From Bryum argenteum (Eukaryota > Streptophyta > Bryopsida > Bryales > Bryaceae), in assembly GCA_037043015.1 (NCBI GenBank), contig CM073322.1, positions 4,971,601 through 5,035,600 on the forward strand: a stretch of DNA of 64,000 bases, written 5' to 3'. Under the pieces are notes generated by a model, which saw only the letters and a list, made by a program, of their open reading frames with translations, made no database searches and had not been told where the DNA came from. Within the stretch, counting starts at the first letter, position 1, and every line of letters starts with the position of its first letter. The position numbers and the translations under genes were made by a program. This document shows, piece after piece, positions 1 to 45,639 of this stretch.

Positions 1-579
1 CTAAAGATCCTTGGGTGTTTTTGGGAGCTTAAAACCTCAAAACTCCAATTCTCTACCTCTATGCACTTCAAGGGGTGCGAAACAATTTTTTAATTCTTTT
101 CTTAACTTCCAACCGTAAGATCTTGTACCTAAGCCAATTTTCAGTATCTGATATAAAAATTGACCGTTGGATGTTTACCATTTGAGAGATTATAACATCC
201 AAAGTTTGTCTACGAAGTTTTTTTGGGCATTGTTGAGATTATTTTTGACACTTTTGGAGGCTGCCCTTGTAAAATTGGTACTCTTTTTGACTTGGGGCCC
301 TTTGGAACTTAAGTAGTGATTTGGTCATGAACATATTTCCAAAAAAAAATCTCAAAAAAATACTAAATTTAAACTGCCCCAGTTCGGCTCGCAAACCAAG
401 AATTGTTGTAGAAGACTCAAAAATTGAAATTTGGCTTTGTAAATTTTACCACATACACTTTGCAGTATAGGGAGCACCCATTAAAAAATTTAGGCAAAAA
501 TATTACTTTTAACCTATTCATCTAAGCTGCCCAAAATAGCAAAAGCCCGATTTGGTCCTCTTGGATCTTTAGGGGTTAG
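1..579. mobile_element. piggyBac-type MITE, left end cut by window
   Basis: The first bases read ctaaagatccttgg, the terminal motif of the CCCCTAAA family a few bases inside its end. The copy closes at 559-579 with cttggatctttaggggtta, where the expected TTAA target has become TTAG. The interior matches the copies at 2213-3175 and 10015-10745 (for example the stretch around gctcgcaaaccaagaattg). It has no coding capacity and is a degraded non-autonomous relative of the element at 3172-8872. Confidence 0.75.
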
Positions 580-1911: not shown

Positions 1912-2216
1912 TTATCCCGTAAAGTCGACCAAGACCGTATTCTCGTCGTTCAAGTTTGGTAAGCCTTTAACTTACTATTTTTAGATCACATGAAGTTGGA
2001 ACCTATTGCAAGTTGGAAATTTTTTCCATACCTTCCAAAATAGTCATTTCAAGCTTTAAAATTTCTCATACTAAATTACTAATAGGAGATAGACAGATAG
2101 TTACCTTTTCAACAAAAAAAGAAAAAAACTTCTTCTTCAACTTTAAACATTACGATCTCACAATTGGTAAGGAATCTTAATATGAGATCTGATATACATA
2201 TACACATACAAGTTAA
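1912..2216. mobile_element. Left part of TTAA element Y, split by later insertions
   Basis: The sequence aligns in order with the reverse complement of the complete Y copy at 54956-55823. Shared landmarks are aagtcgac near the end, gtttggtaagcc, ttggaacc..ttgcaagttgga and ttcaactttaaacattacgatctc. It stops at caagTTAA (2209-2216), where the corresponding Y sequence continues instead at 8869. Two piggyBac-type elements have inserted at that internal TTAA. Confidence 0.7.
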
Positions 2217-3175
2217 GCCCTAAAAATCCAAGCATTTTTTGGCCTTCCAAAACTAAAACTGTGATTTTCTACCACCTTGTTCAAATTGAGATATGTATGT
2301 GTATATGTATATGTATGTGTATAATCACATTATCGTTTTTCTGTACTTTCAACCGTAAGATCTCAAACCCACCTACTATTTGTACTACCATGTGAAATTT
2401 CAACTGTTGGATCTTCACCATTTGTGAGATTGTAACATTCAAAGTTGGTGCAAAAGTTTTTTTGGGCATTGCTTGTGAGACATTGTTTCCATGGAGCATA
2501 GGTAAAATTGAAGATTGTTACCCCAAACATAATTCGCATATTTTTTTCCCATGTAGATAATCAAGTTGGGTACGCTCATGCAAAATTTTGGAAACTCATT
2601 CCATTTGTGTGACCTTCATGCAAATTGTTTCCTAAAAGAAGGTCTAAAAACAACGATATAGTAAAACATGCATTTCCTTTGATATATTTGGTTTAATTAA
2701 AAATCCAAACGGCGAGTAGGTGCCTTTATGAGTTTGTGAAATTTGAGAAAAAAAAGAATTGGGAAAATTCCAAAGCCTCAAATTTTGACAAATTTTGTAA
2801 GAGTTAATTCAGAAATTACTAGAATTTGTGAAGATTGTTTTTGTAAATTTTGAGGGCTGCCCTTGTGAAATTCACAAACTTTTTGAGTTAGCTCACTTTG
2901 GAACTCAAGTAGTGATTTGGTCATGAACATATTTCCAAAAAAAAATCTCAAAAAAATACTAAATTTAAACTGCCCCAGTTCGGCTCGCAAACCAAGAATT
3001 GTCGTAGAAGACTCAAAAATTGGAATTTGGCTTTGCAAATTTTACCACATACACTTTGCAGTATAGGAAGCACCCATTAAAAAATTTGGGCAAAAATATT
3101 ACTTTTAACCTAACAATCTAGGCTGCCCAAAATAGCAAAAGCCCGATTTGGTCCTCTTGGATCTTTAGGGGTTAA
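2213..3175. mobile_element. piggyBac-type MITE 'A'
   Basis: This 963-bp element runs from TTAA (2213-2216) to TTAA (3172-3175). Its termini are gccctaaaaatccaag on the left and, read inward from the right, cccctaaagatccaag. Both ends resemble those of the large element that follows. It has no transposase and is best explained as an internal-deletion derivative. It shares its right TTAA with the next element. Confidence 0.85.
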
Positions 3176-3711
3176 CCCCTAAAGGCCCAGGAAAGCCGAA
3201 TCGGCGTTTTGCAGTTTTGGGCACCTTAGATGAGAGGTCAAATTTTGGTGTTTTGGGCTGTAATTTGGTGTGTGTGTCGGGAAACATAGTAATTGTGTGT
3301 GGTAAAATTTGCAAAGTAAGATTCCAATTTTAGTGCCTTGTAGAGCAAATTTTTGATTTGGAGTTGAGAAAGGGCAGAACGGGTTGTTGTTGTGGCCACT
3401 AAGGAACAAGGTGGAAATGGGGGCAGTTGCGAGGGTCACTCGAGAAAACTCCAGAGGGGCAGGGGTTCCAAGCAGGGTTTTGGAGGACCCAACATTCGGC
3501 AGAATTGAATGCTTTGGGACTGGCCAAAGATTGACGCCCCTCCAAATACATGTCATAACTACAAACTTCGTGAAACTGGCGGCTGAGAACACACTGACAT
3601 GGGGCGATTCAAATTTCAGAATTTGAATGAGAAACTCATGGAAAGATGTTGGGAACAACAAACAGCATACATCAAATCCAAAGCATATTTCAAAAGTAAC
3701 AAAAATCCATT

Positions 3712-4679
3712 ATGGCTAGTTTTGCAAATTCTTTGGACGGGGTTCCTGTGACTGCTGCCATCATTTCACTAGCAACTACCGATTCGAGAGAGGCGAGTGC
3801 AACAGTAGGAGAAGGATTCATCGAGGTGCCAGTATGGACCGAAAATGATCAGAGCACTGAAAATGGTGATTACGCAGTAGAGTCTTCGGCCAGGAGATCG
3901 AACAGCTCCTTCGTGGTCCAACTGTACTTGCCGCCGAGGTTGAGCTTCAGCGAGAGGAATCGGCGGCGAACTGTACGTGCCAGGGAGGTCGACGAGTTCC
4001 TTCGGAGGCGTACTGCAGCTGCCTCCGACCGTCCAGCTTCAAGGTCGCCGCTGCATCAAGTTCGGCAGCCTGCAGATCATCACCAACTTCGGCAGCCCAT
4101 GCGCCAGTGAGCGATCAGATGATTGCACAGATCGAGGAGCGATCACATCAACGGGTTCGAATACATGAACATGAACTTGGTTTGCATGTGGAACTTGCAT
4201 GGTAAACTGACATCACATCAACTGACTAATATGACCATATGCAGGAACCCAATACTGCGGTTGTGAGTGTCGGAAACTTGCAGCCACTTCTTATTTCGAC
4301 ATTGCCGCCTCCATCTGCCGATCCAGAAGCTCGCCTTCGTTCCTGGGCTGTACGCAAACACCTTCGAGCACATCAGATTCATGACCTCCTTTCACTGCTT
4401 GATCAAAAACATTTGCGCAGTTTACGCGTTCGTAAGAAGTCCAAAGCTTGGCCAAGAAATCCACAAGCAAATAATTTCCGACACCATTTCTACAGGCAAG
4501 CCGCACATATTCTAGGGTGGGTTGATCAACACGCTTTTGAGCAAGAATTTCTTGATATTGTCAAATCTACTTGGCCCGATACAAGCAATGCCTCCACGTC
4601 GATCATGGAAGAAGTCAAAGGAGGTGAGTATCTCTTGTGTAACATGTACCTAAATTTCATAGTTGAGAGTTATGAGTAA
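3712..4679 (+). other. GC-rich open frames inside piggyBac B (possible cargo or 5' exons)
   Basis: Two consecutive open frames lie upstream of the transposase: 132 codons at 3712-4110, with an Arg-rich stretch (RNRRRTVRARE), and 146 codons at 4239-4679. Base composition from about 3760 to 4110 is clearly GC-richer than the AT-rich element around it. A donor-like aaggag/gtgagt (near 4623) and an acceptor-like aatacag just before the ATG at 4701 suggest the second frame could be a 5' exon of the transposase transcript. Joining them does not keep one reading frame with the transposase. I recognise no domain. Captured host sequence and extra element-encoded exons are both possible. Confidence 0.4.
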
Positions 4680-4700
4680 TGTCTAACTTGGAGAATACAG

Positions 4701-7340
4701 ATGGAGTGGGACAATATTCCAATGAGAAGGAGTTCACGTCTACAGACACAACCGGAACCAACTACGGTTCCTCCAAGCCCACCATCTAGTCCTGAAGCAA
4801 TATTACCTCCTCAACATCAAGAATTGCCAGATCTAGGACCTGGAGTTGAGCTCATGACCTTCCCTGATACAGATGTTGGCTTCAACGGCGAGTACTTGAA
4901 TTCGCAATCTCCAGTGCATGCGTATTACCCAAGCTCAGAAGAATTGTGTAATGAAGAAGGAGAAGATGATAGTGGTATGGAGAGAGCTGCAAGTCTTGAG
5001 GATATCCTCTGGCCACCTGAAGTCTTGCTTGCAGCAATAAACTTTGGCCGAAGAGGACGGAAGAGAGGTGGTGAGATCTACAATGCTGGACCTGATCCCG
5101 AAGAAGCAAGCGGGAGTGGTGAGATGCACGGACCAGCGCTGCAGCTAGGCGTCGACCAAGATTGCGGTGATGCAACGGCGTTGCGACTAGTATGGGACTC
5201 AAGCCGGCGGACTGCGGGCTGGCACAGCGCCGCGGCCACGAGGTCGGGCCACGTCGGCGAGTCAAGCGCGTCGGCTGCCAGCTGGGGTCCGGCGCCGAGC
5301 GCAGCGGGGCATCTCCAGCCGAACAGCAGCAACGGCCGGCACGCCTGCTTACCCGGGCACCAGGGCCTTCCTGTGGCGGGTGCATCGCCTTCTGGCCTTC
5401 CCCTTACAGGCCATACGCTTGGGCTACAAGGGCAACCAGTAGTTGTGACTTCAGAAGAAAATATTGGTCAATTCACATTGCAGCCAAATATTTTTATTGG
5501 GGAGAGAAGTACTGGTATTGGGCCTGGAGAATTCTATGGCAATGATACTGAGGGCGGTAATAATAATATGGAGTGGGATGATGATGTTGAGGAAGAACAT
5601 ATAATAAGAAGGAGAATGACACGCAATGGTGTGAGGGATGATTTGGGTGGGAATGATAGTGAGGACTTACCCAATTTTGAAAGTGCCTCTGATAGTGATG
5701 GAGATAATCGTAACGATGGGTTACCCCATCAACAAGAGGATATTAGGTGGCAATTTAGGAATGAGACTTGGGGAAACCCAAGTATTATGTATAATCCAAT
5801 GCCGATATCATTTTTGGGGAAACCCATGGGTCCTTCTCGTCATCATCGTGGTATGCCAAGTTTTATGGATTTATTTGGCCTCTTTTGGACTCCACACATG
5901 TTGGCCACTATTGTTCAAGAAACTAATCGGTATGCAAATGCTCCTTTAGATGAGCATGGAAATACCAAAGGTGGTCCTACTTGGGAGAATATGACAATTT
6001 CGAGCCTCAAAGCATTTATGGCCTTAGCCATATATATGGGGTTGAGGGTTCAACCTAATGTAAGAACATATTGGATGCGTGATGACCTCTTTGGATGCCC
6101 AAGTATTTCAAATATATTTACACGGGCCCGATTTCAAGACATTAGGAGATGTCTCCATCTTACAAACATGGAAGGACAAACTAGAGGGGACCCGGGTTAT
6201 GACAAAATCGGTCAAACAAGATGGTTAGTCAATGCTATGAGAGATCAATGTAAAAAGGCATGGTTTCTTGGAAAATATTTGACCATTGATGAAATGATGA
6301 TTCGCTATAAGGGGACATATTCACCGATCGTCAATATATGCCTAAGAAGCCTCAAAAGTGGGGCTTGAAGGTTTGGTGTTTGGCATGCTCGATTTCAAAG
6401 TTCGTATGGAATTTCGAGATCTATTGTGGAAAAGACAATATTGTAGCCCCCCTTCCCATAGAACAACCTAATATTGTTCTTGGCGATGCTCGATTGGCCC
6501 ATAATGTAGTTATGAGGTTAGTGGATGGCCTTTGGAACTTAGGCCATTGCGTGACAATGGATAATTACTTCACTAGTTTTGGACTTTTCACAACTCTTTT
6601 ATCACGGGAAATGTATGCATGTGGGACAATAAGGGCAAACCGGGTTGGTCTTCCCTTAGATTTGAAAAACACCAATTCTTTCAAAAATGTGCCTCAAGGC
6701 ACAACTTTATGGAAAATGCATGACACCCGCACGATATCATGTGTTATGTGGAAGGATAAGAAGCCCGTGCTTCTTATTTCCACTCATTATTTGCCAATTC
6801 AACCCCCATGTGAGAAGGTAGTAACGGTCCCTCGGCGAAATGGTGCAAGTCGTGAAATGATTCTAACATCCCCGATTTTGAAAGAATATACAACTCACAT
6901 GCGAGGTGTAGATGTTGCCGATCAACTCCGAGCATCCTATTCATGCCAAATGCGGAGCCACAAGTGGTGGCACCGTATTTTTTCTTCTTATTGGATGTCT
7001 CGATTGTCAACATGTATATATATTATTTGGAGTGTGTGAAACACTATCGATATAACCGCACGCCGATGACACACCTTCAATTCAAGAAGGGCTTATGTGA
7101 AGCCCTTCTTCAAGGGTGGCCTATGAGAGATTCACACCCCCGGATATTCCTCGAGCAAGGAACACGCCATTGATTTGTGTACCCACATATACAAAATTAC
7201 GACGTCGGTGTGTGGTTTGCCAAAAATTTGAACCACATTATTACTGCCGGAAGTGTGGAGACAAATGGATGTGTCTCAATCGAGGTTGCTTTGAGAAGTG
7301 GCACACAGATATTGCCATACGACGCCAACGCCATATGTGA
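4701..7340 (+). pseudogene. piggyBac transposase (DDE_Tnp_1_7), frameshifted
   Basis: This is the cut-and-paste transposase that excises at TTAA. Frame 1 (4701-6368) has an acidic N-terminal region and the start of the catalytic domain, including LTIDEMMIRYKG with the first Asp at 6288-6290. A second frame (6338-7039) holds TMDNYFTS (Asp at 6560-6562) and MRGVDVADQ (Asp at 6911-6913). C-terminal frames carry the piggyBac cysteine-rich domain (CVVCQ...YYCRKCGDKWMC...C) at about 7205-7310. Homology crosses three frame changes, near 6330, 6975 (in a T run) and 7110, each consistent with one lost or gained base. All three catalytic aspartates are still present, so decay looks recent. The true start may be the ATG at 5568, where MEWDDD opens a typical acidic N-terminus. 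A GC-rich patch at 5130-5420 interrupts the N-terminal part. Confidence 0.85.
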
Positions 7341-7384
7341 GTGAATGTAAGTATTTCTTTTTGCATACAAAGAGGAAGCTCAAG

Positions 7385-7725
7385 TTTGTTACCCCACATT
7401 TTGCGCATATAGTACTTTGCTTGTGAATAATAGTACTTTCCTTGTGAATAATACTTTGCTTTATTTCGAACCCCACAAACAAACGTTAGTAATAATAATA
7501 TGAATAGTACTTTGCTTGTGAATAATACTTTGCTATGTTTTTTATCCCACAAACAAATATGAATAGTAGTTGAGTTATGAATAATACTTTGCTTTATTTC
7601 TTACCCCACAAACAAATGACACCACAATAATTTGAATATTGCTTGTGAATAATTCTTTGCTTTGTTTCTTACCCCACATACAAAAGTTAGTAATAATACT
7701 ATGAATAATACTATGCTTATGGATA
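7385..7725 (+). repeat. Short tandem repeats downstream of piggyBac transposase
   Basis: About five diverged copies of a 60-75 bp unit with the core gtgaataatactttgctt followed by accccacaaacaaa lie just after the transposase stop. They probably belong to the 3' untranslated part of the element. A binding role for the repeats is possible but not shown. Confidence 0.55.
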
Positions 7726-8868
7726 ATTTATTTTTTATTAGTTACATTAGAATTCTTGTAAATTGATAAATTTTGGTGATTTTGTAGGTGTTCGGCAATC
7801 CCTGGAGTCCTTTCTCCAGTTAGGAGAATTCTATTTTGTGCCCTGGAGAACGACTTCGCAAAGGGGGGGCTTCAATCAGTGCGCCTACTGCACGGTACAA
7901 GTGGTGGCCAGGGACGGCAGCAAGGCGGGCCAGCTCCTCCAGCTCGGCTCTTTCCAGATCACGAAATTCCTGCCACCTCATGTGGCTCCCAAGGTGCCAG
8001 TCAAATCCACTTTGTCGTTGCAAGCGTGGGCCTTTTTGTCAGATCATCTTTTTATAGGGAACTTATAAAGAGCTTAGGGAGCTTAGTAACGGTGGGGAGC
8101 AACGGGAAGAAAGCCCTCCCTTTATTGCAAGTGACACATGTCATAGCTATCTACATAGAATATTAGGCAAAGTATTTATGGTGGCAGTAGGCTATTCATA
8201 GCTCTGCCATATTGCCAGCAATGGGCCCGTAAGATTGAGAATGGGTTCCCATTCTTCTTTGTTGCCCGTCCATTTACTAATTTGCATATGTGTGTTTATG
8301 TTCTCCAAAATTGTCAATAATTGAGATTTTACTTTTTTCAAATTTTTTTCCCCCATGACTCTGATTTGTGTAAAGGAACATTTTCACCGTTCACTTTTGA
8401 AAAATTCAAAAAGTTGATGGTGGATTTGTATTAGAACCCCAATTTGTTCACTTAGAGTACTTTTTTGCCTCCTTCTAGAAAAAAAATTGTATGAAGGTCC
8501 AAAAAGTGGAATGAGTGTCTAAAATTTTGCATGGGTGTGGCCAACTTGATTTCTAACATGGAAAAAATACTAGCAAAATGTTTAGGGTAACAATCACCAA
8601 GTCTCCCTTTGCACCAAGTAGACTATGTCTTTCGGGCAAGCCACAAAAAAATTTCTGCATCAACTTTGAACGTTATGATCTCACAAATGGTGCAGATCCA
8701 ACGGTTGAGATTTGACATGGTAATCATGGATGAAGTTAGGTTCAAGATCTTACGGTTGAATGTTCCAGAATACAATAAAAATTTATGCCATACTCCAAAC
8801 TCCACAATGTGGTCAAAAATCGCAGATTTTGAGATTGGAGGTTGCAAAAACGCTTGGGCCTTTAGGGG

Positions 8869-9003
8869 TTAAGTACCTAAATCTTACGGTTACACACCTA
8901 AAGTTTGTCAAAATTTAAAAACTTTCACCTTGCATCAAAATTGGGTTGTTTTTGCTAATTCTGAGACTTTTTGGCTGTTTGAGGCCTAGTCACCTTTACA
9001 GGT
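8869..9003. mobile_element. Right part of split element Y
   Basis: Starting at the TTAA that ends piggyBac B, this stretch continues the Y sequence broken off at 2216. It matches, reversed, the first 135 bp of the copy at 54956-55823 (agtttgtcaaaattt, ttcaccttgcat, gtttgaggcc). It ends in the decayed terminus ctttacaggtta. Confidence 0.65.
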
Positions 9004-9152: not shown

Positions 9153-9852
9153 TTAATTCCCAAATCGTAAAGATCAAAGAAAGCTAAAAGAGCTTTTTGT
9201 TATTTTGGGCCTAGATGATGGGGTTTAACATGATATACCTAAGATTATTACTAAGTACTTTCTTTACCCCAAAGTTTATGTAGTAAAATCTGCAAAGCCA
9301 AAATTTAGTCCAAAATGCGCAATTTAAACTTAGTCTTTCTTTAAATTTTTCTTTACTCACAAAGTCACAATCAAATCACTATTCAATTTCCAAAGTTACA
9401 CAAAGTTAGAAACTTTACCATTTTTACAAGGACATACTCCAAAAAGTACTTCTAGAAAATAATTTGTATGATATCAAGGTCAAAAAAGTGAGATGAATCT
9501 CTGAAATTTCGCATAACCATACCCAACTTGAGTATCTACATGGAAAAATATAACCAAAATATTTGGGGGTAACAATCATTACATTTCTCTTTGCACTATG
9601 AAGACAATGTCTCACAAGCAATGCCAAAAAGAACTTTTGCACCAACTTTGAATGTTATTATCTCACAAATGGTGCTAATGCAACAATTGTAATTATGCAT
9701 GATAGACTAATAGAAGGTAGATTTGGGATCCTATGGTTAAAACCACATAATAACAATGAATTTTCTAACCATACCTCTATTCCAACAAGGTGGTAGAAAA
9801 TTGCAATTTTCGGTTCTGGAAGCAAAGAAATCTCTCAATTTTTAGGGGTTAA
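9153..9852. mobile_element. piggyBac-type MITE, degraded left end
   Basis: The right end is canonical: caatttttaggggttaa, with TTAA at 9849-9852. The left end near TTAA 9153-9156 has a decayed terminus, but ttgttattttgggcc and the following block match the inner left region of element B. It is non-coding and about 700 bp long. Confidence 0.65.
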
Positions 9853-10014
9853 ATGAAGTTTGGTCATGGAGTCCCACATGCACGCACACATGGCTGAAGA
9901 GTTTCAACTAACATTGTTTGAAGAATTTATTCTTTGAATTTTGACAAATTGAAAGAAATAAAGTGAAAATTTGATTGAAGCTTTAGTAAGAGATTGCACA
10001 TAAAACAAATCAAA

Positions 10015-10745
10015 TAAACCCCTAGTAACCATTTGTATGTGTTTTTGGGAGCTTGAAACCTCAAAACTGCAATTTTCTACTTCTATGCACTAACAAAGGT
10101 GTGAATTAGATCTTCTTTTTTTTTTTTAAACTTCCAAGTGTAAGATATTGTACCTAAGACTATATTTATTCCTAAAATTGACCGTTGGATGTTTATCATT
10201 TGAGAGATCATAGCATTCGAAGTTTGTTTCGCAAGTATTTTTAGGCATTGTCAAGATTGTTTTTGAAACTTTTGGAGGTTCCCCTTGTAAAATTGGTAAG
10301 CTTTTTGACTAAGGGTTCTTCAAAATTTAAATAGTGACTTGGTTATGAACATATTTAAAAACAATGAAAAAAACTAAATTTAAGCTGCTCCACCTCGACC
10401 TCGCTCACACGTGAAGTATTGCCCTTAAAGATTCAAAAATTAAACTTTGGCTTTGCAAATTTTACTACATATACTTTGTTGTATATATATATTACATAGA
10501 GATATTACTTTTATTACCTTCACCTAGACTCTTTAGAATTACATAAGCCCATTATGAACTTTAAGGACATTTAAAAGTTTATTTTCTAAAACTGTCTTAA
10601 GCTAATCTTACAAATTTTAGAAAATACTCAGTGTATGTAAAGCTCCATCCACATCAAATTATTGAACAAAGTACTAGAATGAGACCCTTCATTTAAACTC
10701 CCCAAATAAGCAAAATGTTATTCGACTCTCTTGAGACTTCGGAGT
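10015..10745. mobile_element. piggyBac-type MITE copy, diverged
   Basis: It begins taaacccctag and then matches base for base in long stretches with the copy at 1-579 (gtgtttttgggagctt, cctcaaaact, accgttggatgttta). The far end (cttgagacttcgg) is only a weak version of the family terminus. Both TTAA targets are mutated, which suggests an old insertion. Confidence 0.6.
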
Positions 10746-41950: not shown

Positions 41951-44900
41951 TTACTTACACGTTGTACTGTACCACTTACATTCCATGTAAAAATGTACTA
42001 GGCCTGTCAGGAATGTATTAGCCCAATAATCAGTTGGAGTTAATTGCAAAAGTATTAACTCGTTACTTACACGTCTATCACGTCTTCTAAGGTCTTGCAC
42101 TTCATAAGCTATATTTTGAGTCCTGCCTTGTTTGGGATTTTTTATGTTAATGAACTTGTGCATAATGCATCTTATAGGTCTTATACACATGTCGTCAAAT
42201 GTAACAAAGAAATTGTTTTTGATCAAGTTCATTCCGGTGATTGGGTCCACTTTGTCTACCTCCACCCCGTTGACTATTTGTGAATAATTTTGGTAATAGT
42301 CGGCAGAGAAGTATACTTCGATTTGCCCGTTATGCTCATGGCTAAAAATTTCTCTTATTCTTCCTTTGTACGGGGTCCCGTGTTCTTCATCATTTATTAC
42401 AACCACATCATCGCCAGCCTTATATATCGCTCGTCCCAACATACATCTTTTGTGAAGAAGTACGTGCGGTGGATGTGTGGTTCCTAATCCTCGTACACGA
42501 TGCCGCAAATAAGACCAGATAACCTGAGAAGCTTGTACATGTTTGTTGTCAGCTCTACTAATCAATATCCCCTTTCGTTTTGCTGAAATGACACATGCGC
42601 AATCATGAGGTGCCTGCATTAGAAACTTGAACACATCCAACGCTTTCTTCTTAGAAGTCACATGTAAACAACAATTATGATGCCATGGTGGGCATGGGAA
42701 ATTGTCGTCGTGATTTTGGACAGTGCCTTCCGGAAAAAGCATCACATCGTGTACTAGTGCCAATGCCCTCTCAAAACTCTCTAATCCATCACTTTCAATC
42801 TGCACACATAGTTTCACTTTCTGAAACAATCTGCGAGCACAATATCTTATAAATGTTGCTTCCACTAATTTTTTATTTGTCTTGATATTTTGATATTTTT
42901 GGACCTCTCTCTCAAATGGAAAGCACCAGTACACATCGGGATGACCAAACCGTCTTACATCTTCGAAAATGTGACCCGCTCCTGCTGCATGTTCAAGTGG
43001 CCTTCCATTTGGACCATCGAGCGCTTCTGAATATATACGCCACTTCTGAAAAAGTGGTTGAACAATATTTAAATCATCTTCTGTCCAACCTTCACTCCTA
43101 GTACAGACAAATAAGTAATGTCCAATATCTACAAGCAAGCGCCCAACCAAGACCCTTTCATCAGATAATACTCCATCTAGTTTGTTTAGTATAATAGGTA
43201 GCATCCAAAGTACGAAATGTTGATATTCTTCGGCAGTATAGCTTTCGTGGTCGTCGATTGGGTCATAAGGCCATTGGCTTTGTTTTAGTTCAAATGGGCG
43301 AGCCTCGGAGACATTCTTACAACATGTAGTAACCATGTCACATAGAACACGTTGGTTCCGATGTCCTTTGATCTCGGAAAATAATTTCATTGTATAATTC
43401 TTGAATAGGTTAAGACCAGCGATGTGCATCACATCATATACCGAATCTCGCGACAAATCGAACTTATACAAGTGATATAGCCGCCACAATTTTAAATCGC
43501 CTGACACACCTGACTCCATACTATGTTGTGTTCTAGCCTCCTTGTCATTTTTCAGTGCTCTCCACTTGCGAACACTTTCATGAAGTTCTTTAGCACTTCG
43601 TCTCGCAGGTGGATGTCGTACTTGCAATTCATTATCCCCGTAAATGTATCTCCCATCTGCGTTTTGCGTCGAATTCATTTTGCATCTTCTACATTCTGAT
43701 TTTCCCGAAGATTTCAAATTTGAAATCTTACACTGTGCCGGGTGATCTCCAGTAAGCAACATCAATATAGCTCTAATTTTTGGTGTTCCCGAGTTCCGAA
43801 GTATGTTACTAATCCGCCTATTTGGATAGTTATACTGACAACCAATACCATCTAAGAATAAGTCTTCAAGTTCTTCAACAAATGGTTGAATGAAAGCAGA
43901 AATGTTTTCTTTCATACGCTCTACTATATACGCTTCGTGACCTCCCAATGGTATGAATAAAACCGGTAAGAGAGATATGCTTGAAGCAGTTCCCGCATTC
44001 AATACACTAATTTCCATTGCCCAGCAACCTCGTCTCTTCTTCCCTGATACGTTGAATCCATCCCAATGCGCGCCTAGAGCTATGTTACGAGGATCCCCTC
44101 TTTCAAAAACTCTAGGCGCCTTGATAACAGTTTTACACTTCCAACACGTGAAATCATAACATCCTAATTCATTATTCCATCCATGAAGTAGTTCATCGCA
44201 TTTTGTTGGAAATCCATTATATAACATTTGACACTTATCATTTGGGCATGTTATTGGCAATTCCCATTGGCTATGTGGATTCCAAAAATCTTGGTATTCC
44301 CTCACCTTCTCACCATCCCAAAAAGTGTTTAATTTGTTGGGGTGTTGCATCAGTAGTCAACCAATCAAGTTGATTCCGCCACATTGTCAACATTTCATAG
44401 CATAAAGATTTTGATTCCATAATGGATGACAATTGGTTTGCAATCGGGAGGTAATCAAACACAATCATATCGGTCCTTGCTTTTCCACAATGTGTACAAT
44501 GTATTGCACTTTCTTCTTCAGCTGGGGGTAATATAAGTGGCTCGTGAGAATATTCTTTGGTGCCCAAGCACATCCGCCACCGTTTTGGCTCAACCAACCC
44601 CCATCTTTTATATAAACCAATCAATCGCTTAAAAGAAGACGGTGTTGAAGAAGGTCCTTGAAGATTGCCTGTCCAATCAATTGGCATCTTTCTTATAAGG
44701 GCGCCTAGTCCATCTTTATAATTGAAATCATTTGCGTCGTCATTTGGAATTAGGTGTCCAAATAATTGTTTTAGCATGTAATTTTGCAACTCAATGGATA
44801 TTCCTTTACTATCCCATACTTCTTGTACCTCAATTATTTTGTTTTTTAAAATCTCTTGTAAATTATGGAGACGATCATTGATATATTCTTCTCCTACATC

Positions 44901-45155
44901 CATTGGAACATGCAAAGATGGTTCCCCTTCAAATTCAACCTCTTCAAGGATGGGTAAATCTTCATCACTCAAAATATCAGGTTCTGCAGATGCTAGTTGT
45001 ATATTTATTCGTCTTTGCAAGTTTTCTTCAATCCTTTGGTGAGCTTGTTGTGTCCTAAAATCAATCATTTTGTATCCAGGAGCAACACCACGTATAGTAA
45101 ATCGTCGACATTTTGTACACTCGCAGCGAACTTTTCTATTACAATGTCTATCCAT
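41951..45155 (-). pseudogene. CACTA TNP2-like transposase, one frameshift
   Basis: Two large overlapping frames form one protein of about 1065 residues. The first (44310-45155, 281 codons) starts MDRHCNRKVRCECTKC, with a Cys-rich N-terminus. The second (41951-44350, 799 codons) continues FWDGEKVREYQDFWNP, then CWKC, HWDGFNVSGKKRRG, LLTGDHPAQCKISNL and YDVMHIAGLNLFKNY, the order expected for TNP2-family transposases. The switch falls in a T run near 44333, where QQIKHF is followed by an extra T; one base fewer would keep frame. No other interruption is visible over 3.2 kb. It is either freshly inactivated or the run is a sequence error. The enzyme would act on the CACTGG ends and subterminal motifs of this element. 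Confidence 0.85.
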
Positions 45156-45639
45156 TTTCCAATTACTGGAGTAAAAGTGTAAAATGAAAGTACCTAATGA
45201 AATTGCTAGAGGATCTTATGACTTTCAAAAACTATAAACATTAAATGAATATAATATATATTATACATATATGTATACCAAGAAGTTTTTAATTATACGT
45301 TATATGTAAAAGTATTAAAAGTAAAATTGAAGTAAAAATAGAGACACTGCTACAAGTTCAACTAAAATACTAAAAATGACAATTGGGGAAGTTTGAGATG
45401 GGGAGCTAAGGCCAAAATTTCTCTCATTCAAGCCATTTGGGGCTGATTGCTGGATACGTCCTGTAGAGAGGCTCCAAAAATAAAGAAGTAAAAGAATAAT
45501 AATTTAAAATAAAGTAAATTGTTGGCAATGATATATTTATGCCTTTTTTGGGTGTAGAAGTTCAGTTTCAATTAATGCAAGGACTTTAACAAAATAAAAT
45601 TCAAAAAAGAAGAAGAAGAAAAAAAAAACAATTAAATTC

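Follow-up and report, generated by a model that had tools for sequence, protein, structure and literature searches.

We describe a full-length DNA transposon of the piggyBac superfamily in a 64,000-nucleotide stretch of bryophyte DNA (the window; G000:C2:4971601-5035600), analysed together with the genome to which it belongs (258.8 Mb in 25 contigs). The element is a target-flanked insertion whose piggyBac-type transposase carries the catalytic triad of three aspartates (DDD), and the genome holds many near-identical full-length copies of it, empty sites in paralogous sequence and termini related to its own by the thousand. Very probably it is a cut-and-paste transposon whose multiplication in its bryophyte host, most likely a moss, is very recent; it would move by a mechanism resembling that of animal piggyBac, perhaps with a part played by an additional open reading frame, ORF1, that lies upstream of the transposase frame, ORF2. 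Its notable features appear at the scale of the genome, namely the recent burst, the thousands of related termini and the additional ORF. The features are listed in Table 1, where loci elsewhere in the genome are given by number.

The original prediction, made from the letters of the window, was of a near-complete piggyBac element at 3172-8872, and its components (TTAA ends, inverted termini, and a transposase with three catalytic aspartates and a cysteine-rich C-terminal domain) were all confirmed; ORF1, the intron of ORF2 and an older 963-bp element at 2213-3175 were absent from it. Terminal inverted repeats, by which the superfamily is in part recognised, are present in the window copy and in the elements of other families. 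With at most one mismatch allowed, the terminal 18-mer has 1076 forward and 1082 reverse matches in the genome, as against 0+0 for the reversed control pattern, which excludes a chance origin of the termini. A duplicated TTAA target, a further mark of the superfamily, was also found: the window copy is bounded by TTAA at each end, and so are eight of nine other full-length copies read. In the ninth, L028, TTAT takes its place at both ends, and hence the four flanking bases act like a target duplicated on insertion. TTAA precedes 87 of the first 100 exact 14-mer termini listed.

The transposase itself is equally characteristic. Pfam DDE_Tnp_1_7 matched the two main pieces of the window ORF, which lie in two frames, with E values of 1.2e-27 and 3.3e-39; its match to the core of copy L029, which is uninterrupted, has an E value of 1e-75. 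The three Asp positions are invariant across an alignment of eight family proteins, and the DDD triad expected of the superfamily lies within this core. In an alignment with L041, the DE, DN and GVD..DQ motifs correspond to D268, D346 and D447 of T. ni piggyBac, the residues reported for the active site of that enzyme (PMC7351741). The cysteine-rich C-terminal domain, also typical of piggyBac, shows as a Cys/His pattern in related ORFs as well as in the window; its Pfam matches (zf-HIT, E=0.0015; zf-Tnp_2, E=0.05) both fall under the curated cut-offs. Against the PDB, the L029 transposase matched piggyBat (E=3.2e-28) and T. ni piggyBac (E=3.9e-25), and a family profile recovered, at E up to 0.01, these two only (2.3e-51 and 1.4e-47). 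The leader and intron pattern of ORF2 is matched at 11 of the 14 loci tried, or 8 of 10 distinct places, with no match in L018 and L020/L039. Exon 2 starts with CTG in L027 and L036, where the upstream ATG must therefore be the start of ORF2.

Table 1. Features of the window element, and terminus types of related elements in the same genome (window coordinates)
Feature	Position or locus	Strand	Size or remark
Full-length piggyBac element, both TTAA included	3172..8872	+	5,701 bp
Left TTAA and 14-bp terminal inverted repeat	3172..3189	+	TTAACCCCTAAAGGCCCA
Right TTAA and 14-bp terminal inverted repeat	8855..8872	-	perfect inverted copy of TTAACCCCTAAAGGCCCA
ORF1, read unspliced	4239..4679	+	146 amino acids (aa) from first Met; upstream of and overlapping ORF2
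ORF1 conserved domain	about 4332-4586	+	85 aa
ORF2 exon 1	4588..4623	+	MPPRRSWKKSKE
ORF2 intron, predicted	4624..4700	+	77 nt, GT-AG; L035 lacks it exactly here
ORF2 exon 2, transposase body	4701..7340	+	begins MEWDN; three frame breaks
DDE_Tnp_1_7 core	5865..6985	+	Pfam
Catalytic Asp codons	6288-6290, 6560-6562, 6911-6913	+	read from sequence and ORFs
C-terminal Cys/His-rich domain	about 7188..7304	+	cysteine pattern plain in sequence
Older piggyBac-like non-autonomous element	2213..3175	.	963 bp; terminal 18 bases match at 16/18
GGCCCA terminus	window family		5.70 kb
GGACCA terminus	L035		5.58 kb
GATCCA terminus	L027, L036		6.40, 6.46 kb
GATCCT/AATCCT terminus	L038, L039		5.93, 4.94 kb
L037 terminus type	L037		5.49 kb; 15/18 terminal bases match
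TTAACCCTTAAACGCCC terminus	L024, L026		5.20, 4.95 kb

Copies of this element are numerous and young. An absence of further copies in the genome had been named in the original prediction as one result that would speak against it; we looked for this and found dozens of near-identical copies. All 40 places scored (the window included; 182 candidates) in a search with a 0.9-kb piece of the element were at least 99% identical to it. Six full-length copies on five contigs show 99.65-99.79% identity to the window copy over 5.7 kb, while a seventh, L034 (C1:24623400-24632600), shows 97.9% and has a diverged stretch in its 5' part. Counted against L029 over the same 5.7 kb, the window and seven copies carry 1 to 8 substitutions and L034 carries 100. 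L034 is a mosaic, with nearly all of its differences within element positions about 250-1350, and this part looks as if it were derived from another variant by recombination. The mutation rate of plants is near 7e-9 per site per generation, and with this rate the spread of the window family would date to at most about 100,000 generations ago. A genome search for DDE cores, in which the best 116 of 775 candidates were scored, found 93 without an internal stop and 49 in stop-free frames of at least 800 aa.

Direct evidence of insertion comes from empty sites. For six insertions (L029-L034), the two flanks were fused at a single TTAA and the products were used to search the genome; the best 40 of 948 candidates were scored. 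Among the matches listed, the joined flanks of L029 run uninterrupted at 28 places (94-99% identity) and those of L033 at 12 places (91-97%, some with about 10 extra bases). All three L029 empty sites that were read have one TTAA and are identical to the joined flanks for 30 bases on each side. L029 and L033 are thus insertions into host repeats that existed beforehand. Because the paralogous empty sites lie in host repeats, contamination or an assembly artefact from a non-plant source is untenable, and we attach practically no weight to it: DDE matches are spread over contigs C1-C11, plant GRAS genes lie on many of the same contigs, and the insertions sit inside repeats found elsewhere without the insert. 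The same three observations uphold the original view that the element is no contaminant.

The window family is one of several. Elements of autonomous size fall into at least six terminus types (Table 1), and the pattern TTAACCCYTAAASGYC has 5452+5398 = 10,850 exact matches in the genome (control, 0). Many of these related termini belong to short non-autonomous elements: the first 100 exact termini listed include 14 pairs with a spacing of about 5.7 kb and 26 pairs with one of 268-273 bp, and the five short elements read (four of 269 bp, one of 273 bp) are near-identical to one another. For a transposase tree, 26 sequences were kept by motif, cores without the trimming motifs being left out, and 17 remained after removal of duplicates. 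This tree has three deep groups, separated by branches of more than one change per column, and a 12-member radiation within one genome. If the element had been acquired recently by horizontal transfer, from an animal, fungus, alga or virus, and amplified afterwards, this would agree with the youth of the window family. We consider such an arrival improbable, as the presence of at least three deep lineages and of the 12-member radiation in a single genome suggests long residence, and no relative was found in viral contigs, where tblastn gave no confirmed match to ORF1 or to the transposase alignment. We also observed elements inserted back to back. At L050 (C2:1912850-1912990) two window-type copies of full-length spacing meet at one common TTAA, and 48 such junctions at a single TTAA (up to 3 mismatches) occur genome-wide. 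With 5,425 elements and, by extrapolation from the window, 1.41 million TTAA sites, about 21 would be expected; we do not claim an excess, as the two sets differ and TTAA sites are unlikely to be equally open to insertion.

The second conserved component of these elements is ORF1, which may start further upstream or have an additional exon there. In a search with its 85-aa domain (best 150 of 324 candidates scored), the domain was identical, in a 149-aa frame, at 58 places among the matches listed, namely the window and 57 others; the remaining matches listed range from 99% down to 52% identity. Between families, the proportion of synonymous differences (pS) is 0.46-0.89, with saturation in several cases, and that of nonsynonymous differences (pN) is 0.13-0.35, in 10 of 10 pairs of five families, whereas a control in two shifted frames gave pN above pS in all four pairs tested. 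On these counts ORF1 is under purifying selection between families. Searches of Pfam, NCBIfam and the PDB with ORF1 gave no significant match. A single-sequence structure model was too poor for structure search (predicted local distance difference test score, pLDDT, of 56) and was helical at low confidence. The N-terminal region of piggyBac transposases is described as disordered and acidic (PMC9499001). ORF1 is not obviously this region, since by eye it is rich in Lys, Arg and His and was modelled, at that low confidence, as helical.

The arrangement of the two frames bears on what ORF1 may be. ORF2 begins at 4588 in a different frame from ORF1, and a conserved ORF1 beside ORF2 is what the window lineage has in place of the single transposase ORF that described piggyBac elements usually, though not by strict definition, carry. 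It is a minority possibility of some weight that ORF1 encodes no protein of its own and belongs to the transposase gene as an upstream exon or frame, which splicing or frameshifting not evident from the sequence would join to ORF2. L041, which belongs to a distant family of this genome, has the ORF1 domain fused with the transposase in a single 1331-aa frame. L024, L025 and L026 also carry ORF1-related domains ahead of the transposase, and the ORF1-like exon of L024 ends, by eye, at a plausible splice donor. L041 and L024 represent the other two deep transposase groups, L024 being placed by motif only. Against such a joining, the ORF1 stop lies 2-4 bases before the ORF2 ATG in L004/L038, L020/L039 and L019/L037, the relative frame of the two ORFs varies among families, and in the window copy splicing of the shared intron from ORF1 would lead to a stop after about 29 codons. 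We would suggest, tentatively and with reservations of a similar order, that bryophytes harbour a piggyBac branch with a two-component machine, in which transposition in plant cells requires both the transposase and ORF1, an undescribed domain conserved in three deep lineages of this genome; in the window lineage an ancestral fused transposase would have been split into two overlapping frames, and the family would be moving now.

By analogy with animal piggyBac, the transposase would bind both ends of the element and excise it through TTAA hairpins, and the excised element would then be joined into a new TTAA. Short elements and frame-broken copies may be moved in trans by the transposase of intact relatives. 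ORF2 would be translated from its own ATG, and ORF1 may be an accessory protein that helps the transposase by binding DNA or protein; alternatively, ORF1 may once have been the N-terminal domain of a longer ancestral transposase from which it was split.

Several observations weigh against the account given here. Four of the six insertions gave no empty-site match among the matches listed, and the three L033 empty sites read (L055, L056 and L057) have TTGA at the joint, compared with TTAA at the ends of the insert; the repeat copy that received this insert must therefore have had, or been changed to, TTAA. None of nine aligned copies (window included, the mosaic L034 set aside) has an ORF2 that is open from its start to its usual end. 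Gap columns in this alignment number 30, of which 11 are in homopolymers of at least 4, compared with 17 substitution columns, an excess of indels that could be due to assembly error or to decay. Finally, it is the conservation of ORF1 from which we infer a helper role, the structure model being poor.

The frame breaks of the window ORF2 lie in the overlaps 6311-6368, 6856-7039 and 7101-7173. At the second, 15 other places match the window frame past the break at 99%, and the third is the state common to six of the nine aligned copies, the window included. The original prediction placed this copy about three single-base changes from a working one. That estimate is unsafe given shared breaks, indels in excess of substitutions, and two ORFs with an intron; since one break is common to 15 other places and assembly error is possible, the three breaks do not measure closeness to a working state. 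Near-identical relatives of this copy are present in the genome. Longer frames do occur: ORF2 of L031 (916 aa) is open through the catalytic and cysteine-rich parts and ends differently, and two members of a sister family, L011 and L012, contain both core and tail within long frames. Single-base indels are concentrated towards the 3' end of ORF2 and beyond it (alignment columns about 3700-5450), the ORF1 frame being unbroken at 58 places, and several indel patterns are mutually incongruent among copies, as with recombination or recurrent error. The breaks could have arisen through assembly error in near-identical repeats, through recurrent indels or through the spread of a defective subfamily. 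The evidence on uniform sequencing error as a cause is divided: the gap columns point to it, while the clean ORF1 frames and the absence of stops from 9 of 10 full-length single-exon GRAS domains count against it. Hypermutation was considered for elements that have perfect ends but 75-89% protein identity with stops, and was rejected for the two of them that were read, L043 and L044. Each has only 3 substitutions relative to L029, and their low protein identities are hence frame-shift artefacts.

It is rather unlikely, in our view, that the family is already dead, a short and very recent burst being over and the copies, formerly moved in trans, now decaying. The lack of an open ORF2 among the nine aligned copies would fit such an end, as would a frame break common to 15 other places at 99% identity. 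However, the divergence of the copies from L029 is tiny, the long stop-free frames noted above (49 of 116 scored matches) show that other families hold extended transposase frames, and the breaks may be partly assembly error. We favor a cut-and-paste element that has multiplied very recently.

The surroundings of the element hold further traces of the superfamily. The window copy and the older 963-bp element have a common TTAA at the right-hand end of the latter, and window positions 1-578, 9500-10230 and 22000-55200 contain more short fragments like the ends of other piggyBac families. Within the window element there are GC-rich islands at 5172-5371 (71-75% per 100 bp) and 3872-4071 (59-63%), compared with 38% for the window; related ORFs have, by eye, differing Gly/Ala/Pro-rich stretches upstream of the catalytic core. 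Two neighbouring long ORFs lie on the minus strand at 41951-45215, one of which (801 aa) matches Transposase_21 (tnp2) with E=1.2e-6 and 28.4 bits, against a Pfam cut-off of 28.6 bits. An Rfam scan of the window gave no match. Regarding the host, a plastid contig (C12, 114.6 kb) has 27.5% GC over a 9-kb piece and carries rbcL, trnR-CCG and an ORF read as accD. PF01000 (rpoA) has no match on C12, which may be incomplete, and its best match is nuclear (C3:17444155). Loss of rpoA from the plastid, with the gene carried in the nucleus, is a moss trait. Selaginella was considered as host and rejected because its plastids are GC-rich, unlike C12.

Plant cut-and-paste transposons are discussed mostly through other superfamilies. 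The element does lie on a land-plant chromosome, as originally proposed, but the accompanying remark that piggyBac is seldom reported from land plants undersells the record. One survey names PiggyBac among the superfamilies present in all groups studied, land plants being one of them (PMC4438587), another report mentions PiggyBac-like elements in plants (PMC8086355), and a fern genome paper gives 1,230 PiggyBac annotations (PMC6890710). Among the matches listed from the open-access literature, as far as titles and the beginnings of abstracts show, there was no piggyBac from a moss and none with an accessory ORF. Hence, piggyBac in land plants is not new, whereas the two-ORF architecture and the young, abundant radiation were not found described. 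A small plant genome with a very young load of several piggyBac families is a natural system for studying piggyBac function in plants, and it allows one to ask whether there is a helper protein and how the short derivatives become more numerous than the elements they derive from. Insect piggyBac is reported in use for footprint-free editing in plants (PMC10794571), and a native plant piggyBac could be of interest to its users.

Comparison with known systems places the window element close to animal piggyBac in its transposase and apart from it in its architecture. PiggyBac of Trichoplusia ni (PDB 6x67, 6x68) has in common with it the DDD core, the cysteine-rich C-terminus and the TTAA target, but is described with a single transposase where the window element has two overlapping ORFs and an intron, and the N-terminus of the window transposase is longer, with a GC-rich stretch. 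The best solved relative by sequence is piggyBat of Myotis lucifugus (PDB 9c0f); here too, the overlapping ORFs, the intron and the longer N-terminus set the window element apart, and ORF1 has no significant counterpart in the PDB. Two-ORF transposons with an accessory protein and a transposase are known in plants from PIF/Harbinger, MuDR and En/Spm. The window element resembles these in its arrangement, but they belong to other transposase superfamilies and ORF1 has no Pfam match. Short elements of the kind known as miniature inverted-repeat transposable elements have been tied to piggyBac-type transposases in reports on corals and on the ciliate Blepharisma (PMC2872659, PMC9942856); compared with the systems presented there, the host here is a plant, and its 258.8 Mb contain 10,850 related termini.

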